64,000 bases of DNA from an uncultured Alistipes sp. (GTDB taxonomy: Bacteria; Bacteroidota; Bacteroidia; Bacteroidales; Rikenellaceae): NCBI GenBank assembly GCA_944326855.1, contig CALVFO010000017.1:1-64000 (forward strand), in the 5' to 3' direction. Numbering within the stretch: position 1 is the stretch's first letter; every line of letters begins with the position of its first letter. This document shows, in pieces, positions 5,273 through 64,000 of the stretch. Below the pieces are notes generated by a model. That model worked only from the letters and a program-made list of their open reading frames with translations. It had not been told where the DNA came from and did no database searches. Made by a program: the position numbers and the translations under genes.

Positions 5273-5827
5273 ATGATATTACCGATTTACGTCTACGGCT
5301 CCGCCGTTCTGCGCCAAGAGGCCCAGGAGATCACCCCCGATTATCCCGACTTGAAAAAATTTCTGGCCGATTTGTGGGAAACCATGTATGAGGCCGACGG
5401 GGTAGGGCTGGCCGCCCCGCAAGTGGGCAAAAGCATCCGTGTTTTCGTGGTGGACGTCGCTCCCGGGCCTAACGAAAAAGGCATCACTCCTTTTAAGCAG
5501 GCTTTTATCAACCCGGTGATTTACGAACGATTCGGGGAAGAATGGCCTTTCAATGAAGGGTGCCTGAGCGTTCCGGGTATTTACGAAGATGTCATGCGTC
5601 CTGCCGGCATCAAAATTCGCTACCGGGACGAAGATTTCGTAGAACACGACGAAGAATACACTGGATACGCCGCCCGCGTAATCCAGCACGAATACGACCA
5701 TCTCGAAGGAACGATGTTCGTAGATAAGGTCTCCCCGCTGCGTAAAACCTTGATAAAAGGGAAACTGTTGGGCATTTCCAAAGGTAAATACAAGGCCGAC
5801 TACCGCTGCAAACTGGTCAAAAAATAA
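5273..5827 (+). CDS. def: Peptide deformylase
   Basis: This metalloenzyme removes the formyl group from nascent protein N-termini. All three family motifs are present: GVGLAAPQ (43-50), EGCLS (95-99) and the metal-binding HEYDH (139-143). The open frame extends upstream inside ruvX, but the family N-terminus (MILPIYVYGSAVLR) starts at the ATG at 5273. The 184-residue length is normal for Bacteroidetes. It is the second gene of the ruvX-def pair and ends at a strong hairpin terminator. Confidence 0.96.
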   Translation: MILPIYVYGSAVLRQEAQEITPDYPDLKKFLADLWETMYEADGVGLAAPQVGKSIRVFVVDVAPGPNEKGITPFKQAFINPVIYERFGEEWPFNEGCLSVPGIYEDVMRPAGIKIRYRDEDFVEHDEEYTGYAARVIQHEYDHLEGTMFVDKVSPLRKTLIKGKLLGISKGKYKADYRCKLVKK

Positions 5828-47393: not shown

Positions 47394-47858
47394 ATGAACA
47401 AGCTCGCAGCCAAAATTCTGTTACTGTTTTCCGGAGCTCTGCTTCTGGTGCTCTCCGTGCTGCCGCATCACCACCACGGAGACATCATCCACTTCGGAGT
47501 TATGGAACGTTGCGAGCCCTGTCAGGAGTGTCGCGAAAATGCCCGACAAGGCGAATGGGATATTGTAGCCCACAAACATCACCATTCCTCCGACGAATCG
47601 GATGCCGATTGCGATCTGCGTCAACTTTTCGTCATCTCGGCCCGGGAAGAGCAGTTATTGCCGATATATCACGGCAATCAAACCGAACCCTCTTGGAGCC
47701 CGACACTGCCATATGTATCCGACCTCTTTTCGTCGTATTGCCTGCCTCAAAACGACACACCCAACAACCTGAAATACCCGCCGCTGATCGAACGTTTGCG
47801 TTCGATCGCGGCAGGGCATATCTTTGCCCTGAGGGCTCCTCCCGCCATCATTGCTTAA
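47394..47858 (+). CDS. DUF6769-like His-rich membrane-associated protein
   Basis: A 154-residue protein with an N-terminal hydrophobic signal or anchor (about 5-22) ending in LPHHHHGD. A CEPCQEC cluster and a second His patch (HKHHHSSDESDADC) follow. I recall such proteins annotated DUF6769 next to Bacteroidetes metal efflux systems. The His and Cys groups suggest periplasmic Cu, Zn or Ag binding. It precedes the RND adaptor gene by 83 bases. Confidence 0.75.
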   Translation: MNKLAAKILLLFSGALLLVLSVLPHHHHGDIIHFGVMERCEPCQECRENARQGEWDIVAHKHHHSSDESDADCDLRQLFVISAREEQLLPIYHGNQTEPSWSPTLPYVSDLFSSYCLPQNDTPNNLKYPPLIERLRSIAAGHIFALRAPPAIIA

Positions 47859-47941
47859 TCGGGCTCCCTGCATCGTCAGGGAGTTTGCTCGGCGCTTTCA
47901 CGCACCGGGCTTTCATGTATTCACATCACACCTTTCAAGCA

Positions 47942-49186
47942 ATGAAAAGCATCTTAATTATCAGCATTATATCGACATGTATATTATGGGGTTGCGGGAA
48001 TCGTCACACCGAAGCCCATACGGAGCACGGTTCGGAACACACTGAACATACAGACCTCCACGATCACGACCAACACGATCACGCCACAGAAGGTCATAAC
48101 CATGAAGCCGAAACCGGCGAAGAACATGCCGCGCACCACCACGAAAACGAAGAGGCTCACCGTGGAGAAATCATCTTTACCCAGGCGCAAGCAGCCGCAG
48201 CCACAAACTTCGCCCTGTACGAAGTTCGCCCTGTTACGTTCCATGGCATCATTCCGGCCAGCGGACAAATTCTGACGGCTCAGGGAGACGAAGCCACCGT
48301 GGTGGCCTCGTTCAGCGGCATTGTCCGCCTGCCCTCCAAAAAACTGGTTCCCGGAGCCTCGGTAACGGCCGGAGAGACTCTTTTCTATGTCTCTTCCAAA
48401 GAGATTGCCGAAGGGGATTACGCCACCCGTACGGAAGCCGCCTACCAACAGGCCAAAGCCAATTATGAACGCGCCCAAAAATTGATCGGGGATCGGATCA
48501 TCTCCCAAGCCGAATTCGAAGCGGCCAAAACGGCTTACGAAACCGCCGCAGCGGCCCGGGAAGCACTCGGCGACAAAATTTCGAAACAAGGAACCGCCAT
48601 TCAAGCTCCGCTGAGCGGTTTTATTAAGAATCTGAGCGTTTCCGAAGGTCAATACGTGGATGTCGGGCAACCGCTGGCAACCGTCTCCCAAAACCGGAGA
48701 CTGGTTCTGCAAGCCGAAGTTTCTCAACGCTACCACCACCTGCTCGGGACGATCCGGAGTGCCAATTTCCTGACTCCGTACGACGACCAACTCTATTCGC
48801 TCAGCGAACTCAACGGACGTCTGCTCTCCAGCGGGAAAGCCTCGGACGGACGTTCGGCCTACATTCCGGTAACGTTCGAATTCGACAACCGGGGCCATGT
48901 ACTGCCCGGTTCCTTCGTCGAAATCTACCTGATCTGCGCCCCGATGTCCGACGTATTGACCATTCCGGTTTCGGCCCTGACCGAAGATCAGGGGAACTAT
49001 TTTGTTTACGTACAACTGGACGAAGAAGGATACCGTCGTCAACAAGTCACCCTGGGGGTTAATGACGGAGAAAATGTCCAAATTCTTTCCGGTCTGAAAG
49101 TCGGCGACAAGGTCGTCAGTCAGGGAGCGACGCTGGTTAAAATGGCCTCCTTCTCCGGGGCGATTCCCCACGGTCACACCCACTAA
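47942..49186 (+). CDS. Heavy-metal RND efflux periplasmic adaptor (CusB/CzcB family)
   Basis: A 414-residue membrane-fusion protein with lipobox WGC (Cys19). The first about 55 mature residues are packed with His (HTEAHTEHGSEHTEHTDLHD and onwards), ending HAAHHHENEEAHRGE. The usual barrel-sandwich, helical hairpin (about 150-200) and beta-barrel domains follow, and the C-terminus closes with HGHTH. The His segments likely bind the exported metal and pass it to the pump. The upstream frame is open, but the lipoprotein signal sets the start at 47942. The permease follows 12 bases later. Confidence 0.93.
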   Translation: MKSILIISIISTCILWGCGNRHTEAHTEHGSEHTEHTDLHDHDQHDHATEGHNHEAETGEEHAAHHHENEEAHRGEIIFTQAQAAAATNFALYEVRPVTFHGIIPASGQILTAQGDEATVVASFSGIVRLPSKKLVPGASVTAGETLFYVSSKEIAEGDYATRTEAAYQQAKANYERAQKLIGDRIISQAEFEAAKTAYETAAAAREALGDKISKQGTAIQAPLSGFIKNLSVSEGQYVDVGQPLATVSQNRRLVLQAEVSQRYHHLLGTIRSANFLTPYDDQLYSLSELNGRLLSSGKASDGRSAYIPVTFEFDNRGHVLPGSFVEIYLICAPMSDVLTIPVSALTEDQGNYFVYVQLDEEGYRRQQVTLGVNDGENVQILSGLKVGDKVVSQGATLVKMASFSGAIPHGHTH

Positions 49187-49198
49187 TCCGTCGTCGCC

Positions 49199-52100
49199 AT
49201 GCTGAACAAAATCATCAACTACTCATTACACAACCGACTGTTGGTAATGATCATGGCGGCTCTGGTGACCGGTGTCGGTCTCTACACCGCCAACCGCATG
49301 GAAGTCGACGTCTTTCCGGACCTGAACGCCCCGACAGTAGTAGTCATGACCGAAGCCCTCGGAATGGCTCCCGAAGAGGTGGAACGGACCGTCACCTTCC
49401 CAATCGAAACGGCCGTCAACGGAGCGACCGACGTTCGGCGCGTCCGTTCGAGTTCAACCACCGGATTTTCGATCGTCTGGGTGGAATTCGATTGGGGCAC
49501 CGACATCTACCGGGCCCGGCAAATCGTATCCGAAAAACTGAGCACCCTGGGCGAAACCCTGCCCGACAACGTCGGAACCCCCGTTCTGGGTCCCCAGTCC
49601 TCCATTCTGGGTGAACTGATGATCGTGGGACTGACCGCCGATACCACCTCGATGCAGGAGTTGCGGACACTGGCCGACTGGACCCTGCGTCCCCGTCTGC
49701 TTTCCACCGGTGGGGTGGCCCAGGTTACCGTCATCGGAGGTGACATCAAAGAGTATCAGATTCTGCTCGACCCGCAACGCATGAAACACTATGGGGTATC
49801 GGTCGATGAGGTGCTGGCCGTCGTACAGAACATGAGTCGGAACGCCAACGGTGGGGTCTTGAACCAATACGGCAACGAATACCTCATCCGAGGGATGCTT
49901 TCCACCACCTCGACCTCGGAAATGGCCAAGGCTGTCGTAAAAACCGTCGACAACAATCCCGTCCTGCTGGAACACATCGCCGATGTACGGATCGGAGGCA
50001 AAACGCCCAAAGTGGGGGTAGCCTCGGAAAAGGGGAAAGCGGCCGTTTTCCTGACCATCACCAAGCAGCCGAATACCAACTCGTTGGAATTGACCGAAAA
50101 GTTGGACGCAGCCATCGCTGAAATGCAGGCCCAACTGCCCGAAGACATTCATATCTCGACCGATGCGTTTCGGCAGGCCCGTTTTATCGACAACTCGATC
50201 GACAACATCCAGAAAGCCCTGCTCGAAGGGGCCGTATTCGTCGTCATCGTGCTGTTCTTCTTCCTGATGAACGCCCGCACGACGCTGATCTCGCTGATTG
50301 CCCTGCCGCTCTCGCTGCTGGTTGCCATTCTGGCGCTCGAAGCCCTGGGGCTGACCATCAATACCATGAGTCTGGGAGGAATGGCCATCGCCATCGGATC
50401 GCTGGTGGATGACGCCATCATCGATGTCGAAAACGTATTCAAACGCTTGCGGGAAAACTTCCGCCGCCCTAAAGACGAACGTCTGCCGACCCTGAAAGTC
50501 GTGTACGAAGCCTCGACGGAGATCCGCAGCTCGATCGTCAACGCGACCTTCATCACCATCGTGGCGTTCATTCCACTGTTTTTCCTGAGCGGCATGGAAG
50601 GCCGCATGCTCCGTCCGCTGGGAATTTCGTTCATCGTAGCGCTGTTCGCCTCCATGATCGTCGCCGTCACGCTGACTCCCGTTCTGTGCAGCTACCTGCT
50701 GACCGGAGAACGCACCTTGCACCACAGCGAAAAGGAACCTTTCCTCTCCCGCTGGCTCAAAAGCATATATGAACCGGCCTTGGAATGGGTTCTGCGACAT
50801 AAACGACTCGTACTGGGAGGCACCCTCGCGCTATTTATCGTCTCGCTGTTCATCTTTACCGGGTTGGGACGCAGTTTCTTACCGGCCTTCAACGAAGGCT
50901 CGCTGACGATCAACGTCGCCACCATGCCGGGCGTTACGCTCGAAGAGTCGAACCACATCGGACAAAGCGCCGAACGTATCCTGATGTCCATTCCCGAAAT
51001 CCAAACCGTCGCCCGCAAAACCGGACGCGCCGAACTGGACGAACATGCCCTGGGCGTGAATGTCTCCGAAATCGAGGCTCCGTTCTTGCTCAAGGAACGT
51101 TCCCGCAGTGAATTTATGGCCGATGTCCGTCGCAAACTGAGTGTCCTGCCGGGCGTCAACATCGAAATAGGACAACCCATTTCGCACCGCATCGACGCCA
51201 TGCTTTCGGGCACCCAGGCCAACATCGCCATCAAACTCTTCGGTACCGACCTGAACCGCATGTTCAGCCTCGGCACCCAAATCCGCAACGCCATCGCCGA
51301 CGTGGAAGGCATTGCCGACCTGAACGTAGAACAACAGATCGAACGTCCCCAACTGCAGATCCGACCCCGACGCGAGATGCTGGCTCGTTACGGCATCACG
51401 TTGCCTCAGTTCTCCGATTTCGTCGAAGTGGCTCTGGCCGGCCGGGTAGTTTCGCAAGTATACGATCAGGGCCGTTCGTTCGACGTCACCGTCAAGGTGA
51501 ACGACTCCGACCGCGACCGCATGGAATCGATCGGCAATCTCTGCATCGAAGGCGCCTATGGAAAAGTTCCGCTGAATTACGTGGCGGAGATCGTTTCCAG
51601 CTCGGGCCCCAACACCATCAGTCGTGAAAACGCCCAGCGCAAAATCGTCATTTCGGCCAATGTTTCGGATCGCGACCTGCGGGGCGTGGTCAACGACATC
51701 CAGCGCATTATCGACGAACAGATCGTCCTGCCCGAAAACTACCACATCGAGTACGGCGGTCAGTTCGAAAGCGAAGCCAATGCCTCCCGCATCCTGTTGC
51801 TTTGCTCGATCGTCTCGCTGCTGATTATCTATCTGCTGTTGTTCCAGGAGTTCCGCAGCCTGACCGTTGCCGGAGTCATCATGCTCAACCTGCCGCTGGC
51901 GCTGATCGGGGGTGTACTGAGTCTGTGGATCACCTCGGGCGAATTGAGCATCCCGGCCATCATCGGATTCATATCGTTGTTCGGGATTGCCACCCGCAAC
52001 GGGATTCTGCTCATCTCGCACTACAATCATCTCCGCACGGAAGGCCTCTCGTTGCACGATAGCGTCATCCGAGGTTCGCTCGACCGTCTGAACCCCATTC

Positions 52101-52288
52101 TGATGACAGCCCTGACGTCTGCCCTGGCCCTGATTCCGCTGGCGCTGGGCGGAGACCTGCCGGGCAATGAAATCCAAAGTCCGTTGGCGAAAGTGATTTT
52201 GGGTGGTCTGCTCAGTTCGACGCTGCTCAACGGATTCATCATCCCGATCGTCTACCTGATTGTCAACCGTAAAACCGAAACTGCATGA
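49199..52288 (+). CDS. Heavy-metal RND efflux permease (CusA/CzcA family)
   Basis: A 1,029-residue inner-membrane pump driven by protons, with twelve helices and two large periplasmic loops. The N-terminus LLVMIMAALVTGVGLYTANRMEVDVFPDLN is typical of the metal (HME) branch. Helix-4 signature AIAIGSLVDDAIIDVEN holds the charged proton-relay residues. The metal (Cu/Ag versus Zn/Co/Cd) cannot be fixed from the sequence alone. The TolC-type gene overlaps its stop by four bases (ATGA). Confidence 0.94.
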   Translation: MLNKIINYSLHNRLLVMIMAALVTGVGLYTANRMEVDVFPDLNAPTVVVMTEALGMAPEEVERTVTFPIETAVNGATDVRRVRSSSTTGFSIVWVEFDWGTDIYRARQIVSEKLSTLGETLPDNVGTPVLGPQSSILGELMIVGLTADTTSMQELRTLADWTLRPRLLSTGGVAQVTVIGGDIKEYQILLDPQRMKHYGVSVDEVLAVVQNMSRNANGGVLNQYGNEYLIRGMLSTTSTSEMAKAVVKTVDNNPVLLEHIADVRIGGKTPKVGVASEKGKAAVFLTITKQPNTNSLELTEKLDAAIAEMQAQLPEDIHISTDAFRQARFIDNSIDNIQKALLEGAVFVVIVLFFFLMNARTTLISLIALPLSLLVAILALEALGLTINTMSLGGMAIAIGSLVDDAIIDVENVFKRLRENFRRPKDERLPTLKVVYEASTEIRSSIVNATFITIVAFIPLFFLSGMEGRMLRPLGISFIVALFASMIVAVTLTPVLCSYLLTGERTLHHSEKEPFLSRWLKSIYEPALEWVLRHKRLVLGGTLALFIVSLFIFTGLGRSFLPAFNEGSLTINVATMPGVTLEESNHIGQSAERILMSIPEIQTVARKTGRAELDEHALGVNVSEIEAPFLLKERSRSEFMADVRRKLSVLPGVNIEIGQPISHRIDAMLSGTQANIAIKLFGTDLNRMFSLGTQIRNAIADVEGIADLNVEQQIERPQLQIRPRREMLARYGITLPQFSDFVEVALAGRVVSQVYDQGRSFDVTVKVNDSDRDRMESIGNLCIEGAYGKVPLNYVAEIVSSSGPNTISRENAQRKIVISANVSDRDLRGVVNDIQRIIDEQIVLPENYHIEYGGQFESEANASRILLLCSIVSLLIIYLLLFQEFRSLTVAGVIMLNLPLALIGGVLSLWITSGELSIPAIIGFISLFGIATRNGILLISHYNHLRTEGLSLHDSVIRGSLDRLNPILMTALTSALALIPLALGGDLPGNEIQSPLAKVILGGLLSSTLLNGFIIPIVYLIVNRKTETA

Positions 52289-53466
52289 AACGTTTGATAT
52301 TCCTTCTGGTCTGCGCACTCCCCGGATGGGGTACGCTCACCGCCCAAAATACCATCGAAGAGGTTCTCTCCCGAGTCGAACAGGCCTCCATCGCCATGGA
52401 AGCCCAACGCAAACTGACCGAAGCCCAAAAGCTGGAAGCCAAAACCGGCAATTACCTGACCAATCCTTCGGTCGGTTATGAAAGCATGTGGGGCAGCGGT
52501 GAAAATCGCGGGAATGCCGGGGAACTGTCGGTCGTACAGGCTTTCGATTTCCCGAGTGCCTATGGCAACCGGAACAAGATCGCCCGGCTCAAAGGCCAAA
52601 TGTACGAACAGCAGGGAGCGGCTTTCCGTCGACAGATTTTATTGGATGCCAAAATGGCGTGTCTGCAGATCATTTACCTCAGGCAACAGGAGAGCTTGCT
52701 CCAGGAACGGCTCGCCAATGCGGAGAAACTCGCTCAGGTATATCAACAAAAACTCGAGGCTGGAGATGCCAATATCATTGCCATCAATAAAATCAACATC
52801 GAAAAGTTGAATGCGCAGACGGCCTTGAGTCTGAATGGAACGGCGCTGAAGAGTCAGCTCGAACAACTGTCGAATCTGGTCGGAGGCGAACGCATCGAAT
52901 TCGAAAGCCAGGTTTATCCTCCCGAAACGGCCCTGCCGTCTCTTTCCGAAATCGAAAGCCGTTACCTGAACGATGACCCCAATCTGCTGGCTCTGGAACA
53001 GGCTTACAGCATCGACCAACGGAGCATTGCCCTGAATCGGTCGCTCTCCCTGCCGCAATTCGAAGTGGGGTATCGCCAGAATTTCGGCATGGAAGGGAAA
53101 GCCAAAGGGTTTCTGGTCGGCATCTCCGTTCCGTTGTTCGAAAACAAAAACAAGGTCAAAGCCGCCAAGGCCCGCAGCTTCTTCTCGCAAGCCCAACTGC
53201 AAAGCTCCAAACTCAATCTCAAAACCGAACTCGCCCAACTGTACGAACAGGCCCAAACCCTGCAACGGTCGGGCAATGAACTGCGGTCGCTGTTGAGCCA
53301 GCAAAACAACCTGGAGATTCTGCAAAAAGCGCTCGAAGCCGGACAGATCGATATTATCGAATACTTTACCGAAGTCAATATTCTGTTTGAGAGCCGGGCG
53401 CAACTCCTGACGATCGAACGGGACTATCGCCTGGCCACCGCCCAGTTGTTCCGCTATACCTTGTAA
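52285..53466 (+). CDS. TolC-family outer-membrane factor (CusC/CzcC-like)
   Basis: A 393-residue protein with a Sec signal (cleavage near LTA-QNTI) and two long coiled-coil OEP repeats. The repeat ends are seen in NPSVGYESMWGSGENRG and LPQFEVGYRQNFGMEGKAKG. It provides the outer-membrane channel for the RND pump. The ATGA overlap with the permease gene shows translational coupling. A strong terminator follows. Confidence 0.92.
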   Translation: MKRLIFLLVCALPGWGTLTAQNTIEEVLSRVEQASIAMEAQRKLTEAQKLEAKTGNYLTNPSVGYESMWGSGENRGNAGELSVVQAFDFPSAYGNRNKIARLKGQMYEQQGAAFRRQILLDAKMACLQIIYLRQQESLLQERLANAEKLAQVYQQKLEAGDANIIAINKINIEKLNAQTALSLNGTALKSQLEQLSNLVGGERIEFESQVYPPETALPSLSEIESRYLNDDPNLLALEQAYSIDQRSIALNRSLSLPQFEVGYRQNFGMEGKAKGFLVGISVPLFENKNKVKAAKARSFFSQAQLQSSKLNLKTELAQLYEQAQTLQRSGNELRSLLSQQNNLEILQKALEAGQIDIIEYFTEVNILFESRAQLLTIERDYRLATAQLFRYTL

Positions 53467-53653: not shown

Positions 53654-54880
53654 TTATCCGTTCTGGACGGACGATGACTGTTGCGCGGCATAGTCCTGAG
53701 CGGCTTTCATCACCCGTAACAGGTTTCCGCTCCATATTTTAGCAATGTCCTCTTCGGAATAGCCTCGGCGCAAAAGTTCTACGGTAATATTTTTCAGCTG
53801 CGCCGCATTTTTGCAATCCGAAAGCTGACCGCCTCCGTCGAAATCGGTACCGATCCCCACATGGTCGATTCCCACCAGGCGAACTACATGATCGATGTGA
53901 TCGACCGCTTCGGACACCGAAGCCAGATTGGGCGGATACGTCTCATAAATCTTCTGGATATCGGCCCGCTGCTGACGCTGCTGTTCGGGAGTCAAAGTTC
54001 CCAAGGCCGCATACTGTTCGCGCATGGCTTGCATGGCCGAATCCAATTGCGGATTGGGAATGTCCGGGCGCACATAACTGCTCAAAATACACAACTGCAT
54101 GACCCCGCCTTTTCGGGCCATCGCCACCAGCAGGCTGTCGCTCATGTTGCGCGGATTCTGACACACCTCCCAGGCACACGAGTGCGAAGCCACGACCGGA
54201 ACGGCACTCAACTCGATCGCATCAAACGCCGACGCCTCACTCACATGAGAAATATCGACCATCATCCCGAGGCGGTTCATCCGTTCGACTACCTGACGAC
54301 CGAAATCCGAAAGTCCTCCATGCTCTTCGATCGTATCGTTGGCCGAGTCGCAGATATCGTTATTGCGGGTATGACACAAGGTCATATAACGTACCCCCAA
54401 ATCATAGAAGCGATCCAAGATTTCCAGATTACGTCCGATTGCATAACCGTTTTCCACGCCAATATACATGGCTCTTTTGCCTTCCTGTTTGATTTTCAAA
54501 CCGTCTTCCGGGGTCGTGGCCAGCGTGAACTGATCCGGATGTTCGGCCGCCATACGGCGAATATCTTCGATAATGGAGAGGGTGCGTTGCGTAGCCGCTT
54601 CCAGGGCTGCCGAATCACGCGCTCCCTGACGAATATAAGCCGCAAAAAAAGCGCCGTCGAGTCCGCCGGCTACCATCTTCGGATAATCCACACATACGCC
54701 CGGATTGTCCTGCATGATATCGAACTCCGGCAAACGAAATCGCAAAGGCGTATCGTTGTGCGAATCCAAGGTCAACATACGGGTATGTAAAGCCTCGGCC
54801 CGTTCTTCGAGGGTCTGCTCCCGGCAGGAAACCAGAAGCGACAGGGCCAATAAAGCCCCGAAACAGATTTTTGAATTCAT
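53654..54880 (-). CDS. M19-family (renal-type) dipeptidase, lipoprotein
   Basis: A 408-residue zinc dipeptidase with a lipobox LVSC (Cys19), so it is membrane-anchored. Metal ligands are visible: His41 and Asp43 in DSHNDTP, a Glu in VENGYAIG, His in DISHVSE and SHSCAWE, and the late DHVGIGTDFDGGG. It cleaves dipeptides, possibly including D-amino-acid or cell-wall dipeptides. It stands alone, converging on the metal efflux operon. Confidence 0.94.
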   Translation of the reverse strand: MNSKICFGALLALSLLVSCREQTLEERAEALHTRMLTLDSHNDTPLRFRLPEFDIMQDNPGVCVDYPKMVAGGLDGAFFAAYIRQGARDSAALEAATQRTLSIIEDIRRMAAEHPDQFTLATTPEDGLKIKQEGKRAMYIGVENGYAIGRNLEILDRFYDLGVRYMTLCHTRNNDICDSANDTIEEHGGLSDFGRQVVERMNRLGMMVDISHVSEASAFDAIELSAVPVVASHSCAWEVCQNPRNMSDSLLVAMARKGGVMQLCILSSYVRPDIPNPQLDSAMQAMREQYAALGTLTPEQQRQQRADIQKIYETYPPNLASVSEAVDHIDHVVRLVGIDHVGIGTDFDGGGQLSDCKNAAQLKNITVELLRRGYSEEDIAKIWSGNLLRVMKAAQDYAAQQSSSVQNG

Positions 54881-55227
54881 AGAAGGGTTAAGTTTGGGGG
54901 GGGGTTAAAAATATAAAAATCCAACCGAAAACCAAGACGGATGTTAACCTTTTGTCGATAAATTTCACACTACACCAGCGACTTTCTGTTTTTTTATCAG
55001 GAATAAAAACGTATTTTAGTCTCGAAAACAGGCCAACTTCCCAAAAGTTTTAAAATTTATAATTTTGTATATATTTATACAAATAAAATAAAATTTTAAC
55101 ACATACTGGGAATCCGAGCTTTTATGACCTATCTTTGTCCCTGTCCGAAAGAGTCTGTATTCTTCCAGAAGAAGAGTCGATCGGGTTGATAAATAGATAC
55201 GTCGCAAACAAGAAGAAAGCGTAGAAG
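54881..55227. other. AT-rich intergenic region before the giant gene
   Basis: About 347 bases. The dipeptidase leader contains a run of nine G on the plus strand. Then comes a strongly AT-rich stretch (about 55040-55100) and a perfect -7 element at 55130. No coding frame is convincing. Confidence 0.6.
55130..55137 (+). promoter_or_regulatory. -7 element for the 2,241-residue gene
   Basis: TATCTTTG matches TAnnTTTG exactly, about 90 bases before the start. The AT-rich DNA upstream could act as an UP-like element. Confidence 0.6.
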
Positions 55228-58200
55228 ATGAAAATTGTAGGAGAACCGAAAGCCTTTTTAAGCCAGGAAGCCCGCCAATTACTCAATCTGTATGAGTCGC
55301 TGGGAGAGAGAGCCGAGATCCTGTTGCCTCGTCACATTTTCGACAACCTGACCAGTTTTGTGTCCCTCTGCATGGAGGAACCCGACGATCCCGCCAAACA
55401 GCAGGCCGAAATCAATCGTTACCTGCTCAAATTCCGCGAGGACATTCCGGGGTACACCCATGTGTCGCTGATGCTCGTCCCGCACAACAACTCCAAAGCC
55501 TTCGAGCTGAGCAGCAAACGAGGCGAATTCACCCATAAGATCAATGCCCTGCTCGATACGGACGGCACCGGTCCCGAAGTTAAAAACATCCTGCGCAATA
55601 TCCGCGACAGTCACGACCTGTCGGTAGGAACACCGCCCATCAACAGTTCGCATATCGATTTCATGTCCCAAGTGCAGTTGGGCGGCCATGTTCGTGATCT
55701 GAGAAAATACCGGGATGTCATCGGGGTGACGGGCGATATCAACGAAGCCCACTGGAACTACCTGATGGACACCCTCGAACAGATGATCAGCCAAAGCACC
55801 CACTACACCACGCAGGCCGAAAAGAAAGACTTCCTGCATCGTACGCAGTGGGCGGTGAATTTCAAAGGGATGAACGGCATGATCCGCACCGTGGTGTCGG
55901 GCAATGCCGACAAGGCGGTCTCGTTGCTTCGGGGCGATGTCTTCAACAAGGATTGCGTGGTGGTGATGGAAAGTCCCTCGCCCGAAGTGTTGTACGAAAA
56001 GATGACGACCGACACCACTTCGGTATTCGTCGTCAAGGTAAAGCACGCCCGTATCAACCACTACGCAGGCGAAAAATGGTTCCCGCTGTTGACCCGTCTG
56101 GTGATCGTGGACGACTCCAAGGAGTCGCGCAGTTCGAACACCTCGCTGGTTTTCTGTTTCCACAACGGCATCATCAACACCCTGAACATCGTTCACACAA
56201 AAAAACTGGGTTCCCCGGCCAATACGCAGCTCAACCTGCGGTTGATCCTCGAAAACGTCAACCTGAAATACCTGATCGAATTCCGCGAAAAGATCGAAGC
56301 CCAGATCGCCGAATACACCCGCGAACTGAACATTCTGCTCAAGGAACAGACCGGGGAGACGGACGACGTGGAAAAACGCATCACGCTGTTCAAGCTCGAC
56401 GCTTTTTCACGTCAGGTGGTTCAGGACAAATATTCGCTGGAGAAACTGCGCGACTTCATCTTCTTCCTGGAAAACTGCCACAAGCAGGACAACAAGAAAA
56501 TCCAGACCCAGGAGCTGATCGACGAGTTCGAAAGCCGCATGAAACAATACTTCTACGCCGGCAACAAACTCATCGACGTAATCACCATCCTGGAGGGTGG
56601 GGGACGCCACCAGATCAAAACCTTCGGCGATTACCTGCGCAGCAAAACCTTCAACAACCTGGGTAGCCGGATTCGCTATGCCTGTCGGTTGATTCTGGAC
56701 ATCATTCCCAGCTGTTACGAACGGACCCTGCACAACCATTTCCACAAGAATTTCGGCATCAATCTCTTTTTGGAAAAGTATCAGGAATACCTGACCAAAA
56801 CCATCAAGGATGCCGACAACAAAGGCCGTTACGAAAAATTCCTGATCGATCTGGGAATTCGGGACAAATACTTCGCCCTGAGCGAAGAGGACCAGAACAT
56901 CGTCAAGAATTTCCTGTCGGCGCTGGGTAATTTAGATCAGACCTCGGTGTCGGACTCGGTCCAGATGATCATCCGCGACCTGCTCTTCAACCCGAACGGG
57001 CGGCCGAAACCTTATATCATCTACAACGCGGTACAGGCCTGGGAATACAAAGACCTGCTGCCGGACGACTGTTTCGACATCAATCCTTTCGACATCGAAA
57101 TCGAAAACGACGAGAAAGGACGACTGGCTTATGACCGTCTGATCGACAAGTTGCAGCGGATCAAATCGACACTGGCGTTGTTCGACGACAGCGGCAGTCT
57201 GTGGGATCTGTTCTGCGAGAACACGACCATCATCATCAACGACCCCAACAACCCGACCGGATACAGCGACTTCAACACCGAAGCGATCAATAATTTCCTG
57301 CGCTTCCTGAACAGTTGCAAGATCACCCTGTTCCTGGACGAAGCCTATGCCGAAAGCGTCAAGATCGAAGATCGAGAGATGCCCAAATGGCGGACGATTT
57401 CGCGTTACATCATGAACAACATCAACGCCCAGTCGCGCATCAAGGCCATCTCGTCGCTCTCGACCACGAAAAACCTGGCGGCCACGGGAGAACGCCTGGG
57501 GGCCGTTGCCCTGACGCCTCAGGCCTCCGATTTCGCCAAATACGCCCGCAGCTGCAACAGTGCCGAACACGGCAACAACAATTCGTTGCTGATGCTCAAC
57601 AACACGCTGGAAACAGCTCAGGTAGCCAAAAGCATCAAAGACCAGATCGAAGCCGAGTTGCCGAAAAACGCTTCGCGCTCGAAGATCAAAAAGGCCATCA
57701 TTAAATTCATCGTCAACCAGATCGACAAGACGAAACAGAATAACGAAATCAGCAAAACCAACCGCCAGTTGCACAAAACGGCCGGATTCGAAGGTTCTCC
57801 GCTATATCTTTTCCTGCTGGACGAACTGGTCGCCCTCGACAAACTGGATGTTTTGGGATTGCCGGACGACTTCAAATACCACGATGAACCGTTCTTCATC
57901 TATTACCAACAACGACTGGTCGAAAATCTGAACCGCTTCCGGGTCAACAAGAATTTCCGTAAGGAATCGCTCACCCGTCAAAAAATGGCTCAGGGGATTG
58001 CCAAACGTCTGTTGGAAGAGGCTCCCGAGGGCACTCAACTGGATTACATCCAGTCGGACGGTTCCTACCTGTTCAACTTCCGGATTACCGGTCCCTATGC
58101 CTATCCCGATCTGTTGCTGTTCTGTCGGGCCCTGGCCAAAAACAAAGGCGTCGCCACGGTACCGTACCCCACGGGGCTGATCCGCTTCTCTCTGGGTGGA

Positions 58201-61200
58201 TACATCAATGCCTCGCCTCAGGGGATGAAGGTATTTGCCGCCGAAATCGAGGATGCTTTTTCGATTCTGATCAAATACTGGACCCGGTTCGCGACCCTTC
58301 GAGCCGATGAAGCCAACAAGGAGAAAGAGAGTAGCGAGCTGCTCGCTCAGGTATTCTATTACCCTAAGGACCAGGACTTTATCAACGCCGTTATCGAAGA
58401 CTACGCTCTCTCGGCCCGGTACAAAAAAGACAAAGCCCCGTCGTTGCAGATCCGCGACGTCCGCTCGCTTTACCACACCTCTCCCGAAAAGAGCGGTGTA
58501 ACGATCACCACCATCGGACGTTCGGCCAATTCGGTTATCGAATTGCACGGCGATCTGATCGGTTCGTGCAAGGACGTCTTCGAGTTTGTCAAGAGTTCGG
58601 CCTTCACCAAGGTGTACGAAAACCTGTTGGCCCAGGTCTATCGCAAGATTCCGGCCCTGGCCGACCTGGACTTCAATAAAGTCAGTTCGAAATACAGCAA
58701 AGCGGTCATTCTCAAATACATCACCAACAAGCGGACGTTCCAGCCCAATCACCACGTACTGGATAATCCCGAAGAAAAGAACGTGATGCGGGAAATCCTG
58801 ATCGAGATGGAGAACCTGCTCTTCTCGGACAGCAAGATGAAAATCCTGGCCATCAACGCCACGGGAGACCCCGAACTGGACAAGGCCAAACTGGAGGGAC
58901 TGAACTCCATTCTCAAGAAACATATCCGCGAAATCCTGTTGCACTTCAACCTGCCGTTCGAAAAAGAGAGTCTGGAACCCAGCCGCCGCGAGATCATTCA
59001 CGTGGCCGGAGAGTGCTTCGAAGAGATCACGGGCATCAAACTGACCGATCTGAATCTCAATATCTGGATCGACGAATTCATGCGCAACCTGCGCGAAATT
59101 CCCGAATTCCGCTCGTTGGAAATCTTCTCGCGTCGCAGCATCGGATACATTGAAGAGATGATCTATCAGGGCGTAGACAACGCCCCCGAGGTAGCGGACA
59201 AGATTCTCTACCTGTACCTGCTCAACAACGATAATTCGTTCTACAAACAGGTTTGCAACAAACTGAAATACTTCAGCCAACGCATCGAAAGTTGTGACGA
59301 TGGCGAATTGAGACTGTTCGCCGAAGAATTCGTATCGAGTCTGCTTCCCATGGAGTTGCGAGAACTGAGCAACTATATCATGCGCAAGAAGGACATTAAA
59401 ATCGCCGAAAGCGAAATCTATTCGGTCAGCCGCCGGGTCGTGCGTTTCTACATCAGCATGATCAAGCGTACCCGGGGAACGGATTATTACAACCGTTACG
59501 CCCACACCATGGTACGCATCGTGGAAACGGCCTTCAAAAAGCAGAATTCCAGCGTCAACGAAATGGTGCAGCACGGCATTTCGCTTTACAAGGGCTTCGA
59601 GATGGAGAACAAGACCCTGGAAACGTTCGACAAAGGCCGTATCAGCTGGATCAACGAGCTGATGTCCAAATGCGGAGTCATCTCCTCGGAACAGCCCGTT
59701 CAGGTTCATACCCGCATCGTCACCGACGCCAAGAAACGCGAATACCCGTTCCACAAAATCGACCGGCTCGACAGTCGTAAACCGGATGGAGAAATCCCCT
59801 CGGACTACCCGGCCGAATATATCCGCTATATCGATACCCGACCGGCTTCATCGTTCTTTATGGACCGGCTGGCGCGTTTCGTCGAAAACATGGACTCGGA
59901 CGACTATCGCTGCAAAGTAGTGAAACACGGGATTGTCAAAGAGTTGGTTATTTTCCAGAAAGGGTACATGAAATACCTGACCGACAACTACCGACTCAAC
60001 TACACCGAAGATATCAGTCTGAAGGACATTCGCAATTTCGTTCCGGACGTAATTTCACTGCTGGGAGCTCCCGAAAAGCTGATTTCGTTCCCGCAGATCG
60101 GTTATTTCGACATTAAAGGTCCTTCGGGCAACATCAAGACGATCGTTACGCCGCTCAAATCCGAAGCCGACTATTTCGGCGACGTCAAGAAACCGCGTCT
60201 GACGGTCATCAACGAAAAAGTGAAAGAAATCGGAGGGATTCCGCGTCACGGATCGTTGTTCATGGTCGAAGAGAACGACGGAAGTGTGTTCGTGATCGAA
60301 ATCAACGGCGACAGCGGGGTAGGTAAGAGCGAAATGATCGCCGCCTTTGTTCTCAAATGGCTACGCAACAACCTCGAAGGGATCCGGTCGGTAAAAATGA
60401 TCGCCGGAGACATGTTCCACGAATTCCAGGATGCCGACGGCAACCTCTACGGCATCGGCACCGAAGTAGGAGACTTCTCCCGCACTACGGACTTCGACCC
60501 GGATTATATCAAATACTACAAGTACCTGTTCGAAAGCAGTGCAGACAGCAACGTGGACGACCTCAATTCACGCAGTACGGTCAGCGGCATGTGCGATATC
60601 ACCATGCCGTACAAGGTGGACATCATGCTTTCGGCCAGCAACTACGCCAAAGACGAAGGAGGCATTACCCGGGTGGATAATCCCGAAAACTTCCTGCTGT
60701 ACATCGACGCCCACGGCGAACGCAAGGAAAAGGCCACCAGTCAGGACGGTCCCAATTTCCACCGGACGCTCAAACGCTATACGGCCGACAAAAACATCGT
60801 GGAAGTAATCTCCAAACACGGCAACTACCTGGACGAAATTCTCGACTGGGACTATTCCCCCGTCGAAAAGCAATACTACCTGGCCTCATCATTCAAGTTG
60901 ATGGACAAGGTGGATATTCCCGAAGTGGTTCGCATGATTTTCGTGGGCCACAGTTTCACCCGCGAAGGCATCCGTTATCGGATCGACAGCGTCGATTTCG
61001 ACATGATCCAAAACCGATTCATCGCGTCTGTAAGCTACACGCAGGACGAAGAACCCGGTTATGCCGAAATGAAAATCGACCGCAAGATGTTCAGTGCCAT
61101 TTTCGATGCGCTGGCCAGCACGCCGGGCGGTCAGCCCTTCATTGCTGAAGAGGGACAAATGGAATGCATCCAGAATCTGATCACCTGTCTGCGGGGTGGA

Positions 61201-61953
61201 AAAGACGGCAAGGGGAAAGCCCGTCTGATCCAATGCGGGGTACTGTCGACCGAAATCGGCAAGAAGGGCCGTGAGATCACCGGCCCTCAGAAAGCCGCCG
61301 CCGCCCTCAAACAACTGATCCAGGAGGTTCGGGTCAATAAACCGGAGATCAATGCCGGCAAGATCAAGGTCAAGGAACTGATCAACGACAAGTATCGCCA
61401 CATTTTCGGTGGAGAGATGAACAGTTCGGAGATCTGGCGCTACAACTTCTACCTGTATCAGTTGGATATCATGCGCAAAGCCGATCTGCGTCGGATGGAC
61501 AACCGAAACAAGAAAGTGGATATCACCAATCTGGTGGATTTTCACCCTTCGGATCGCAAACAGGAATTCAGTCCGCTGTTGGTGACCCCGAATCTCAACA
61601 TCGAGTTAACAAGTTTCAGCGAAACCTACGACGAGCTGATGAGCTTTCCGAACTATCCGGAATTTGCCGAAGAGTTCGCCGCCAAACTCGACCTGCTCTA
61701 CCTGGCCGAAGGATACAGCGAAGAGACCAATATCAATAACATGATCGTTCAGTTACTGATGCTCGAAGGATACATCAACAGCGACGATTTGGCCCGGGGC
61801 AGCGTCATCGAGAAAGTGAATCGGGAAACCATCGCCGCCGCCAAATACGCCGTCGTACAATACCTGAATCATCGGAAAGCCGTGGCCGCTCCAAGCGATT
61901 CACCCAAAGCCACCGCTCCTTCCGAATCGGCCGTAAAACCGACGGTACAGTAA
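55228..61953 (+). CDS. 2,241-residue protein: PLP aminotransferase-like module plus HprK/PEPCK-type P-loop module
   Basis: A single uninterrupted frame, no signal or membrane helices, so cytoplasmic. Residues 1-560: unrecognised, mixed alpha/beta with helical stretches. About 560-1010: fold-type-I PLP enzyme, with NDPNNPTG (671-678), DEAY (704-707), the Schiff-base Lys748 in SLSTTKNLAATGERLG, and Arg986 in IRFSLGG. It carries a roughly 150-residue helical insert before its C-terminal lobe. About 1020-1590: unrecognised, helical. About 1590-2210: a module with P-loop GDSGVGKS (1694-1701), nearly that of HPr kinase and close to PEPCK, then VKMIAGD (1722-1728) as a possible kinase-2 motif. The last 30 residues are Ala/Pro/Ser-rich. 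Own promoter and terminator. DUF4914 is a family to compare with the C-terminal part. Function unknown; the module calls rest on motifs. Confidence 0.85.
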   Translation: MKIVGEPKAFLSQEARQLLNLYESLGERAEILLPRHIFDNLTSFVSLCMEEPDDPAKQQAEINRYLLKFREDIPGYTHVSLMLVPHNNSKAFELSSKRGEFTHKINALLDTDGTGPEVKNILRNIRDSHDLSVGTPPINSSHIDFMSQVQLGGHVRDLRKYRDVIGVTGDINEAHWNYLMDTLEQMISQSTHYTTQAEKKDFLHRTQWAVNFKGMNGMIRTVVSGNADKAVSLLRGDVFNKDCVVVMESPSPEVLYEKMTTDTTSVFVVKVKHARINHYAGEKWFPLLTRLVIVDDSKESRSSNTSLVFCFHNGIINTLNIVHTKKLGSPANTQLNLRLILENVNLKYLIEFREKIEAQIAEYTRELNILLKEQTGETDDVEKRITLFKLDAFSRQVVQDKYSLEKLRDFIFFLENCHKQDNKKIQTQELIDEFESRMKQYFYAGNKLIDVITILEGGGRHQIKTFGDYLRSKTFNNLGSRIRYACRLILDIIPSCYERTLHNHFHKNFGINLFLEKYQEYLTKTIKDADNKGRYEKFLIDLGIRDKYFALSEEDQNIVKNFLSALGNLDQTSVSDSVQMIIRDLLFNPNGRPKPYIIYNAVQAWEYKDLLPDDCFDINPFDIEIENDEKGRLAYDRLIDKLQRIKSTLALFDDSGSLWDLFCENTTIIINDPNNPTGYSDFNTEAINNFLRFLNSCKITLFLDEAYAESVKIEDREMPKWRTISRYIMNNINAQSRIKAISSLSTTKNLAATGERLGAVALTPQASDFAKYARSCNSAEHGNNNSLLMLNNTLETAQVAKSIKDQIEAELPKNASRSKIKKAIIKFIVNQIDKTKQNNEISKTNRQLHKTAGFEGSPLYLFLLDELVALDKLDVLGLPDDFKYHDEPFFIYYQQRLVENLNRFRVNKNFRKESLTRQKMAQGIAKRLLEEAPEGTQLDYIQSDGSYLFNFRITGPYAYPDLLLFCRALAKNKGVATVPYPTGLIRFSLGGYINASPQGMKVFAAEIEDAFSILIKYWTRFATLRADEANKEKESSELLAQVFYYPKDQDFINAVIEDYALSARYKKDKAPSLQIRDVRSLYHTSPEKSGVTITTIGRSANSVIELHGDLIGSCKDVFEFVKSSAFTKVYENLLAQVYRKIPALADLDFNKVSSKYSKAVILKYITNKRTFQPNHHVLDNPEEKNVMREILIEMENLLFSDSKMKILAINATGDPELDKAKLEGLNSILKKHIREILLHFNLPFEKESLEPSRREIIHVAGECFEEITGIKLTDLNLNIWIDEFMRNLREIPEFRSLEIFSRRSIGYIEEMIYQGVDNAPEVADKILYLYLLNNDNSFYKQVCNKLKYFSQRIESCDDGELRLFAEEFVSSLLPMELRELSNYIMRKKDIKIAESEIYSVSRRVVRFYISMIKRTRGTDYYNRYAHTMVRIVETAFKKQNSSVNEMVQHGISLYKGFEMENKTLETFDKGRISWINELMSKCGVISSEQPVQVHTRIVTDAKKREYPFHKIDRLDSRKPDGEIPSDYPAEYIRYIDTRPASSFFMDRLARFVENMDSDDYRCKVVKHGIVKELVIFQKGYMKYLTDNYRLNYTEDISLKDIRNFVPDVISLLGAPEKLISFPQIGYFDIKGPSGNIKTIVTPLKSEADYFGDVKKPRLTVINEKVKEIGGIPRHGSLFMVEENDGSVFVIEINGDSGVGKSEMIAAFVLKWLRNNLEGIRSVKMIAGDMFHEFQDADGNLYGIGTEVGDFSRTTDFDPDYIKYYKYLFESSADSNVDDLNSRSTVSGMCDITMPYKVDIMLSASNYAKDEGGITRVDNPENFLLYIDAHGERKEKATSQDGPNFHRTLKRYTADKNIVEVISKHGNYLDEILDWDYSPVEKQYYLASSFKLMDKVDIPEVVRMIFVGHSFTREGIRYRIDSVDFDMIQNRFIASVSYTQDEEPGYAEMKIDRKMFSAIFDALASTPGGQPFIAEEGQMECIQNLITCLRGGKDGKGKARLIQCGVLSTEIGKKGREITGPQKAAAALKQLIQEVRVNKPEINAGKIKVKELINDKYRHIFGGEMNSSEIWRYNFYLYQLDIMRKADLRRMDNRNKKVDITNLVDFHPSDRKQEFSPLLVTPNLNIELTSFSETYDELMSFPNYPEFAEEFAAKLDLLYLAEGYSEETNINNMIVQLLMLEGYINSDDLARGSVIEKVNRETIAAAKYAVVQYLNHRKAVAAPSDSPKATAPSESAVKPTVQ

Positions 61954-61965
61954 CCGTCGCTGAAT

Positions 61966-62014
61966 CGAGAAACGAATGGCCCGGGATAAAAAATCCCGGG
62001 CCATTCGTTTCTCG
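61966..62014. terminator. Long perfect hairpin after the giant gene
   Basis: A 22-bp perfect inverted repeat (61966-61987 / 61993-62014) with an AAAAA loop. It has no T run but is very stable. Confidence 0.65.
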
Positions 62015-62112
62015 GTCCCATTCACTCTGGCACCCCGTATCTGTCGAGAGTCGGAAAGAGAACTTCCGATCGAGTCGTATTGCCTGAGCGAGAACCGGAC
62101 TGTAAGCGAGAA

Positions 62113-62141
62113 CCGGAAGAGGAGATATAATCCTCTTCCGG
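62113..62141. terminator. Second hairpin between convergent genes
   Basis: An 11-bp stem, CCGGAAGAGGA / TCCTCTTCCGG. Just upstream, GCGAGAACCGGA occurs twice (about 62089 and 62106). It probably ends the NigD-like transcript. Confidence 0.5.
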
Positions 62142-62214
62142 CTCTACCTGCAAAACAACCCTGTTGAAACTATAAATATAACTAACTATCAACGGCTCAC
62201 GAGCCGCCCATTTA

Positions 62215-62901
62215 CTACAAAGTCCCGGATGGTAACGTAAAGATTCCCGAATCCTGTCGCGGTATGCCCTGATAATCCGTCCACTCAACACAGACCGTAA
62301 TTTGCTGCTTTCCTTCGGGCACCAATTCCGACAAGTCGAATGAAACCCGCTGAGACGCTGCCAAGGAGGTCGGATCACCGTAAGCATTGTGACGCAAGGT
62401 CAAGTACACCGTCTGATCATCGGAACGTTGTTCGTCGACCACCAAATTGATAAAATGAGCCAACGACGGATCTTTACGCAACACCTCAATATTGGCATTC
62501 AGGTATTTACCTCCAAAGTTCATGGCACGAACATTGACAGGATCGTTTCCGAGTTCCGCTATTTGCTCAGAAGTCAACTGTGAAAGATAAACGGGACTTT
62601 TAGTCAAAATATTATATAGAAAATTCAATCGGACATTATAACCTGTTTCGACTCGATCCAGAATGGTATAATTCGCCATCACTCGTTGTCCGTCCTGCAC
62701 TTCCATTCCGGAGGAAGCGTTCTCCACAACATAAAGCGTAGCTCCCTCATCGATGACGATATGATAGGAGTCTGCATTTCCTACAATATTTCCATAAGAA
62801 ACCCCGATATAATATGAATCGCGGTCTTTATTACAAGCCGTCAGGAGCAACAACGCTCCCATCATCACACCCAGCGCATAGCGCGAAATTCCCTTCCACA
62901 T
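62215..62901 (-). CDS. NigD-like lipoprotein
   Basis: A 228-residue lipoprotein (lipobox LTAC) matching the NigD-like family of Bacteroidales. The first half holds an OB-like domain with SYHIVIDEGATLYVVEN, GQRVMANYTILDRVETGYNVRLN and the second half a beta-sandwich ending in a Cys- and Trp-containing strand (CVEWTDYQG). Function unknown; NigD-like genes are often near outer-membrane protein or fimbria genes. The frame extends 48 residues upstream, but the signal peptide places the start at 62901. It lies 101 bases downstream of the beta-barrel gene. Confidence 0.85.
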   Translation of the reverse strand: MWKGISRYALGVMMGALLLLTACNKDRDSYYIGVSYGNIVGNADSYHIVIDEGATLYVVENASSGMEVQDGQRVMANYTILDRVETGYNVRLNFLYNILTKSPVYLSQLTSEQIAELGNDPVNVRAMNFGGKYLNANIEVLRKDPSLAHFINLVVDEQRSDDQTVYLTLRHNAYGDPTSLAASQRVSFDLSELVPEGKQQITVCVEWTDYQGIPRQDSGIFTLPSGTL

Positions 62902-63002
62902 TTTCTTGTTGTTCTGTATTGGATTTATTAAAAAGATGCACAAAGTCTGCAAGACGTTGCATCCATAACACGAAATAACTCGAAAAAACAGAAAAATACC
63001 GA

Positions 63003-64000
63003 TTAGAATTTCACCCGGAAGCCCAAACGGACGTTGAAACTCCACGGATTTTCGGTACGGTAAGTAATCGGCTGGCGATCGTTGGCAAAATAATAGCTGG
63101 CTCCGGGTTCAAGATAGACGCCGAAACGATCGATCATGTAATAAGTGACCCCGCCGCCCAACGTCGTCGACCAGAGCAATCCTTTGGGATGCAGATCTTC
63201 ATAGCTGGTCGATTGGGCGTCCCCTTCGAAATACATCCGGATACGCTGCTGGCCCGACAAGCCGACTTCAGCCATGAATCCACCGGTCAAATACACATCC
63301 CAACGATGGTTGTTGAAAAGCGAATAACTGGCATACAGCGGGATCCCCAAATAATGAACCTGCTGACGGGCTTTATACAGAAAACTTTTCGATTCCAACT
63401 CTCCGGTCGACTCCAGGTAAGAATAGACCAGTCCGGTTTCCAATGCCCAACGGTCATTGAAATGCTTTTTAACGCCCAAACCCACTGAAATCGGGAAATG
63501 ATGTTTAAACTTCATTCCCGACAAGCTATTGGACATATTGTTCAGATAATCGGCATTCACCATCGAGGCAAGCAAGATCTTCGGCGTATCGAATCGACCG
63601 CTGTTCTTGCTGTTATCCGAAGCCGCAAACGTATTGGTGAAAGCTGACAACTGCCAAGTTTTCCGCTGTCTGCGTTCCGTATAGCGATCCCAGTCGAACC
63701 CGCCTCCCAGAGCAGAAGATACGGAAGAAGAGCGATCGGCACGAGTTCTCGCCGTATGGTTCCGTTCATTGGGTGTCGGAGACTCCATCGAGAAGGGACG
63801 TACGATCAGTTCATCGGCCAACAAAGATTCCGAAGCCAATTTAATATCGAAATCCTCGATCAGGGAGGGTTGATTCTGAGTATTATGCAATGGATTACGT
63901 TGGGGAGTGGTTACGACGCTGACGCTGGCAGCCGACTTGAACAGATTCCCCAAGGCCGAACGAATTTCCTGATTGGAGACCTGCAACGATTCTACCGGAA
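63003..64000 (-). CDS. Outer-membrane beta-barrel protein, 5' end missing
   Basis: The minus-strand frame runs off the right edge with no start in view, giving the last 332 residues. The first about 140 residues are low-complexity and polar. The remainder reads as alternating strands of an outer-membrane beta-barrel (porin/PorT-like): WALETGLVYSYLESTG, HYLGIPLYASYSLFNNHRWDVYLTGGF, and the closing SFNVRLGFRVKF with a terminal Phe. Many Bacteroidetes homologues carry an N-terminal cytoplasmic or single-helix region, which cannot be seen here. The NigD-like gene follows and may be co-transcribed. Confidence 0.8.
   Translation of the reverse strand, partial: PVESLQVSNQEIRSALGNLFKSAASVSVVTTPQRNPLHNTQNQPSLIEDFDIKLASESLLADELIVRPFSMESPTPNERNHTARTRADRSSSVSSALGGGFDWDRYTERRQRKTWQLSAFTNTFAASDNSKNSGRFDTPKILLASMVNADYLNNMSNSLSGMKFKHHFPISVGLGVKKHFNDRWALETGLVYSYLESTGELESKSFLYKARQQVHYLGIPLYASYSLFNNHRWDVYLTGGFMAEVGLSGQQRIRMYFEGDAQSTSYEDLHPKGLLWSTTLGGGVTYYMIDRFGVYLEPGASYYFANDRQPITYRTENPWSFNVRLGFRVKF

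Follow-up and report, generated by a model that had tools for sequence, protein, structure and literature searches.

A giant protein of Alistipes and its relatives uniting a fold-type-I aminotransferase module with a probable PEPCK/HprK-superfamily P-loop module

The window analysed here, a 64,000-nucleotide stretch of an uncultured Alistipes sp. of the Rikenellaceae (GenBank assembly GCA_944326855.1, contig CALVFO010000017.1, positions 1 to 64,000 of the forward strand), contains at 55228-61953 (+) a single open frame that runs from ATG to stop without an internal stop codon and encodes a protein of 2,241 aa. In this chain a fold-type-I aminotransferase module is followed by a P-loop module that is probably a distant member of the PEPCK/HprK/DUF4914 superfamily, as judged from sequence comparison (Table 1). 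The original prediction, made from the DNA letters, had described this gene as one unbroken fusion of the two modules; the frame proved to be as described, and the aminotransferase landmarks (N671-DPNNPT-G678, D704EAY707, K748 in SLSTTK748N, and R986), the P-loop (G1694DSGVGKS1701) and the hydrophobic-GD motif (IAGD1728) all lie at the residues that it gave. We propose that the protein might be a bifunctional enzyme in which a transaminase-type reaction of a free amino acid is linked to ATP-dependent phosphotransfer on a small carboxylate, a proposal whose chances appear to us to be about even. Searches of the open-access literature aimed at the fusion found no published description of it. If both sites work, pyridoxal phosphate (PLP) catalysis and PEPCK-type phosphotransfer would be united in one chain, and a pathway in common gut bacteria would be missing from the parts list of their genomes; the protein in question lacks an assigned function, is under very strong purifying selection and is present in all 8 same-genus genomes examined.

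The aminotransferase module is supported by its Pfam match, by invariant residues and by structural similarity. The Aminotran_1_2 model (PF00155) matches residues 664-807 with an E-value of 5.4e-11, scoring 42.7 bits where the cut-off is 19.7. When the PLP-site residues of aspartate aminotransferase (AspAT) listed in PMC3823064 are used for assignment, the Schiff-base lysine, the aspartate of the pyridine nitrogen, the α-carboxylate arginine, and the Asn and Gly of the NPtG motif are all present (K748, D704, R986, N675 and G678, respectively), while S745, T747 and R756 lie at the spacing of AspAT S255, S257 and R266. K748 and R756 also coincide with the corresponding Lys and Arg of ACC synthase in an alignment read by eye. 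All ten of the residues assigned to the PLP site stay unchanged in the 21 aligned sequences, whose identity to the window protein goes down to 48-49%; no variation is seen at N675, G678, D704, A706, Y707, K748 or R986, and T677 varies. Structure prediction followed by a Foldseek search, which had been suggested as a check, led from the aminotransferase half to class I/II aminotransferases, and these also make up the VIA matches of the model. Among the fold-type-I aminotransferases, the nearest solved structures by fold are of the kynurenine aminotransferase type (PDB: 3aov, 2qlr) and the nearest by profile is ACC synthase (PDB: 1iax). Unlike these enzymes, the module of the fusion is buried in a 2,241-aa chain and carries extra sequence at residues 800-940.

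Certain observations temper the assignment of this module. The Pfam match is restricted to residues 664-807, the model is of moderate quality (mean predicted local distance difference test score, pLDDT, of 65, with residues 673-679, 707-716 and 746-756 below 50), and the Foldseek TM-scores by target lie between 0.28 and 0.47 among the 50 matches listed. In NCBIfam the aminotransferase part reaches no cut-off. The genome itself has 13 Aminotran_1_2 places, the fusion among them, four of which (L128-L131, some of the picked frames being probably antisense) were taken for comparison with hhalign: the aminotransferase half aligned clearly with L131 (E 2.3e-7) and weakly with L130 (E 0.008), and no alignment was obtained with L128 or L129.

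The kinship of the P-loop module emerges mainly through a family of stand-alone proteins of about 569-618 aa (L061:2447-4177, L062, L118-L122 and L093:4701-6410), which show the motif order YxGxxKK-H-P-loop-DD-R. In blastp comparisons residues 1524-1841 match eight such proteins at 26.5-32.1% identity (E 3.3e-24 to 2.1e-10), and hhalign aligns the fusion with the family over 481 columns (E 7.4e-23), with the KK, H, P-loop, second Asp, Glu and Arg in register; the stand-alone proteins differ from the fusion in having no aminotransferase module and in retaining the DD. Seven of the eight match PEPCK_ATP at E up to 1, the best at 2.1e-5 with 23.9 bits, which falls short of the cut-off of 26.5, and two members scanned singly reached no Pfam or NCBIfam cut-off. 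One member, AYP99509.1 from a Limosilactobacillus fermentum plasmid, is annotated as 'phosphoenolpyruvate carboxykinase', which is perhaps too precise. In profile comparison the stand-alone family scores 45.5 against PEPCK (probability 62%), the best of 40 column shuffles reaching 24.9, and the fusion compared directly scores 33.8 (probability 8%, E 0.004; best of 40 shuffles 25.9).

The published marks of PEPCK, namely XKK, XKT, GDD and RX5TR (PMC2684135), are kept only selectively. Y1649, K1654 and K1655 are in register with the PEPCK-specific XKK both with and without the P-loop, and H1674 occupies the place of the histidine between KK and P-loop. The P-loop keeps the Lys of XKT and has Ser for Thr, the kinase-2 strand reads G1727-D1728-M1729 with one Asp in 21 of 21 sequences, and RX5TR is absent from residues 1780-1880 as read by eye. 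Since XKT is kept only in part and GDD and RX5TR fail, the module is not a PEPCK, though it plausibly works like one in phosphoryl transfer. Compared with ATP-PEPCK (PF01293), the fusion shares YxGxxKK, a His 19 residues on, the P-loop and a Glu in register, and is unlike it in the remaining marks; the PF01293 model itself matches one of 21 fusion members, far below its cut-off (E 0.26). A separate, genuine PEPCK is encoded elsewhere in the same genome (G000:C21:53519-54928).

Against even this distant kinship several results must be set. The direct similarity of the fusion to PEPCK is weak, and once the eight columns of the P-loop are masked, the scores against PEPCK drop to 22.8 (stand-alone family) and 25.3 (fusion), within the range of the shuffles, so that the overall similarity appears to lean on the P-loop. 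D1728 pairs with the second Asp of PEPCK via the stand-alone family and is shifted by one position when fusion and PEPCK are aligned directly, R1782 is aligned only via the stand-alone family, and the missing kinase-2 Asp is a departure in its own right. Because the AlphaFold model of residues 1036-2226, built with 26 close homologues, failed (mean pLDDT 45), the PEPCK-like fold is suggested by sequence alone. On the other side, in the P-loop-masked alignments the Tyr, both Lys, the His and the Glu still pair with those of PEPCK, and in the stand-alone family also the DD and the Arg; with a wider mask (P-loop and eight residues on each side; scores 18.5 for the stand-alone family and 26.1 for the fusion) the His of the fusion stays in place and that of the stand-alone family is displaced. 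The kinase- or PEPCK-like nature claimed for this module thus probably stands at the level of a superfamily, although no Pfam or NCBIfam model reaches its cut-off on this part of the window protein.

That the kinship is with the superfamily rather than with PEPCK in particular is indicated by DUF4914 (PF16260), which in the same two comparisons scores 50.5 against the stand-alone family and 40.5 against the fusion (E 6e-4, probability 28%), somewhat above PEPCK and hence seemingly about as near to the module; these scores, unlike those of PEPCK, stand without a shuffle control, and the DUF4914 score drops to 15.5 with the P-loop masked. The Pfam model of DUF4914, with which a comparison had been recommended, finds no match up to an E-value of 1 in any of the 21 fusions; four of the eight stand-alone members match it weakly. 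The stand-alone family could be a bridge between HprK, DUF4914 and PEPCK, and is open to study as such.

HPr kinase/phosphorylase (HprK; PF07475) suggests another use for the module. The two share the type of P-loop, GDSGVGKSE being of the HprK type, and an HG shortly upstream, a motif of HprK; Hpr_kinase_C is weakly matched at E up to 1 by five of the eight stand-alone proteins (best 0.053) and two of the 21 fusions (best 0.018), and the kinase-2 motif departs from PEPCK. The module might on these grounds be a cis regulator that, like HprK, binds ATP and phosphorylates the protein itself or a partner, switching the transaminase on and off with the energy state, leaving the PLP site as the only metabolic one. 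We regard this as rather unlikely, given that no HprK model matches the window protein even at an E-value of 1, that the PEPCK-specific YxGxxKK is kept, and that no other part of the protein is as conserved as the P-loop module, as would be expected of a catalyst more than of a modulator. Far less probable still is a NACHT/STAND-type NTPase in a signalling or defence protein with an aminotransferase-like domain. The Pfam NACHT model matches 17 of 21 fusions at E up to 1, and its best E-value of 3e-5 surpasses what any PEPCK model reaches on the fusion itself, which also counts against PEPCK kinship. The window protein (11.6 bits) and L058 (17.0 bits) stay below the NACHT cut-off of 26.7. We read the match as P-loop similarity, because the matched range in the three members shown is 29 residues around the P-loop and the families found in the eight stand-alone relatives do not include NACHT. 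The KK and H upstream of the P-loop in the PEPCK register, and the presence of the gene in all 8 same-genus genomes, unlike a variable defence gene, also speak against such a protein. Matches to FapA (13 of 21 members, best 7e-4) and to dynein light chain (E 0.012) were taken as chance.

Loci related to the fusion, 28 in number, come from Alistipes, other Rikenellaceae, Odoribacter and one metagenome-assembled genome titled Porphyromonadaceae (best-segment identity 73-97%), four of them ending at contig ends (L013, L024, L025, L026). An artefact of assembly or frameshift uniting separate genes, which the original prediction had named as a possible refutation, is refuted by full-length unbroken frames in many assemblies, including Odoribacter laneus and the complete chromosome of Alistipes sp. 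dk3624 (NZ_CP045651.1), and we attach practically no probability to it. Matches were found in 34 of 101 genomes of relatives, comprising the genome itself, 8 of 8 of the same genus, and others scattered in the family and order; the 34 include one with stand-alone relatives only (G079), one represented by no more than a 97-residue fragment at the end of a contig (G077) and four with fragments at contig ends (G009, G012, G013, G038). Further out, various members of the order and of a second class have full-length orthologues at 48-54% identity. Since a sample of the phylum gave 3 matching genomes of 395 (the genome itself and two of another class, at 54% identity) and a sample of that class centred on G162 gave 1 of 197 (G162 itself), the distribution outside the genus is patchy.

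An order sample of 295 genomes, apparently the same draw each time, was searched with three profiles. The N-terminal profile (A7) and the aminotransferase profile (A6, E up to 1e-15) each matched 17 genomes, and the P-loop profile (A3) matched 23. All three found the same 17 genomes, own genome included, with each match in one frame of 2,150-2,320 codons, the shortest of which ends at a contig end. The other six have stand-alone frames of 577-618 codons only and no fusion. The P-loop module therefore does occur separately, as had been asked, but at the thresholds used no genome of the 295 has the N-terminal or aminotransferase part without the remaining modules. The fusion and the stand-alone protein were never seen together (about 0.35 overlaps expected), the genomes being too few to call this exclusion. 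Among plasmid records the single match is a stand-alone relative and not the fusion.

The gene is also strongly conserved in sequence. The ratio of nonsynonymous to synonymous substitution rates (dN/dS) is 0.008-0.085 across all five segments in three orthologue comparisons and is lowest in residues 1526-1880 in each (0.008, 0.033 and 0.052), values which are rough since several dS are near or above 1.3 and one is 2.7. The same segment is the most conserved in identity to the window protein (65-87% in seven fusions). At locus L001 the fusion is 85% identical, compared with 38-88% for nine flanking genes, six of which are at 38-58%. K1654, K1655, H1674, the P-loop, D1728, E1746 and R1782 are invariant in 21 of 21 sequences. 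Neither K748 nor the P-loop is lost in the aligned homologues, a loss that the original prediction had named as a refutation. Either module might have lost its catalytic activity and act instead as a scaffold or sensor: one of two kinase-2 aspartates is missing and the aminotransferase active-site loops are poorly predicted, but the invariance of the assigned catalytic-type residues of both modules at about 50% identity makes this improbable in our estimation.

Taken together, these observations are consistent with the following scheme for the bifunctional enzyme, in which the roles of the PLP-site residues are assumed by analogy with AspAT. The substrate of the aminotransferase-type site would be a free amino acid or a 2-oxo acid. 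K748 would form the Schiff base, D704 would contact the pyridine nitrogen, N675 and Y707 would contact O3', R756 would bind the phosphate, and R986 would bind the α-carboxylate of the substrate, as R386 does in AspAT; it is the invariance of R986 that suggests a free amino acid. The PEPCK/HprK-superfamily site, composed of the P-loop, K1654/K1655, H1674 (aligned with the metal-ligand histidine of PEPCK), D1728 and R1782, would employ a divalent metal and transfer phosphate from ATP to a small carboxylate or a side chain, the retention of metal-site residues favouring catalysis over mere ATP sensing. The constancy of the fusion is best explained if the two are coupled, such that the product of one site would be the substrate of the other or turnover at one would be gated by the other; the link of amino-acid chemistry to ATP or phosphate made in the original prediction would then hold. 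In a more specific version, an acidic amino acid would undergo transamination at the PLP site (in the case of Asp, giving oxaloacetate), and the resulting 2-oxo acid would pass to the PEPCK-like site for decarboxylation and ATP-dependent phosphorylation, yielding phosphoenolpyruvate, or an analogue from another 2-oxo acid, in one polypeptide and without release of the unstable intermediate. The retention of YxGxxKK, H and the probable Arg of PEPCK along with the α-carboxylate Arg of transaminases fits this route, which would make the protein a channelling enzyme of a new kind among gut Bacteroidales, but we hold it to be a long shot.

Outside the two modules, regions claimed to match nothing indeed gave no match of weight: the whole protein, the N-terminal part, a profile of residues 1036-2226, the fused P-loop half and the stand-alone family found nothing of weight among PDB sequences. 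They may not all be extra domains, however. Residues 1-470 are possibly in part the aminotransferase small domain, given that in 34 of the 50 aminotransferase chains listed the first aligned model residue is at 72-148, a weak indication as only end residues are given; and the last part of 1036-1525 may correspond to the N-terminal half of the stand-alone protein, with which profile comparison pairs residues from about 1294 to 1870, convincingly by eye only from about 1550. EGGGRxQ (456-462) and HxHKNFG (504-510), at 56593-56757 of the window, are invariant in 25 aligned rows; we know of no motif to which they correspond, and they could form a substrate or interface site. The size of these regions, about 1,300 of 2,241 residues outside recognisable modules and under comparable purifying selection, with invariant motifs such as EGGGRxQ in them, would suit a macromolecular or carrier-bound substrate held by residues 1-470, 1036-1525 and 1881-2226, both sites acting on an appended amino acid as in the pair of O-phosphoseryl-tRNA kinase and SepSecS. 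The invariant R986 argues instead for a free amino acid, and no RNA-binding or carrier domain of weight was found in Pfam or NCBIfam; such a substrate thus seems to us improbable.

Table 1. Features of the fusion gene and its product (coordinates in the window)
Feature	Residues	Coordinates	Strand	Remarks
Fusion gene	1-2241	55228..61953	+	2,241 codons; both flanking genes (53654-54880, 62215-63045) on the opposite strand
TATCTTTG, resembling the Bacteroidales -7 box		55130..55137	+	weak; two-box pattern TTTG-N18-23-TANNTTTG without match here
N-terminal region	1-470	55228..56637	+	no Pfam/PDB match of weight; invariant SxGxPP (132-137) and EGGGRxQ (456-462)
Fold-type-I aminotransferase module	471-1035	56638..58332	+	extra sequence at about 800-940
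NDPNNPTG	671-678	57238..57261	+	N675 equals AspAT N194 by position (residue list, PMC3823064)
DEAY	704-707	57337..57348	+	D704, A706 and Y707 equal AspAT D222, A224 and Y225 by spacing (same list)
Predicted PLP Schiff-base lysine	K748	57469..57471	+	invariant; S745, T747 and R756 at the AspAT spacing (same list)
Equivalent of AspAT R386	R986	58183..58185	+	invariant; same list
Middle region	1036-1525	58333..59802	+	no Pfam/PDB match of weight
Probable PEPCK/HprK-superfamily phosphotransfer module	1526-1880	59803..60867	+	hhalign to stand-alone family, E 7.4e-23
YFGDVKK	1649-1655	60172..60192	+	in register with PEPCK-specific YGGEMKK
Histidine	H1674	60247..60249	+	in register with PEPCK histidine; same 19 residues from second Lys to His
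P-loop GDSGVGKS	1694-1701	60307..60330	+	
Kinase-2 strand (IAGDM)	D1728	60409..60411	+	lone Asp where PEPCK has two
C-terminal region	1881-2241	60868..61953	+	conserved except for the last ~40 residues

The fusion looks like a single-gene unit, as both adjoining genes lie on the other strand. The Bacteroidales -7 box has the consensus TAnnTTTG; the two-box promoter pattern matches at 5779 and 47795 only, with none at the fusion gene, and a terminator pattern was not found in 61900-62250. In agreement with the claim that partner genes are lacking, the most widespread family of neighbouring genes is found at 5 of 30 loci, and neighbours are shared only at a few close loci. Upstream, three genes at 47510-49186, 49199-52288 and 52285-53466 (+), which look like an efflux operon of the resistance-nodulation-division type (periplasmic adaptor, pump and outer-membrane factor), are kept upstream of the fusion in four loci (L001, L004, L014, L022). 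The divergent gene at 53654-54880 (-), a probable lipoprotein membrane dipeptidase, is found near the fusion only in the closest relative, L004, among the loci examined.

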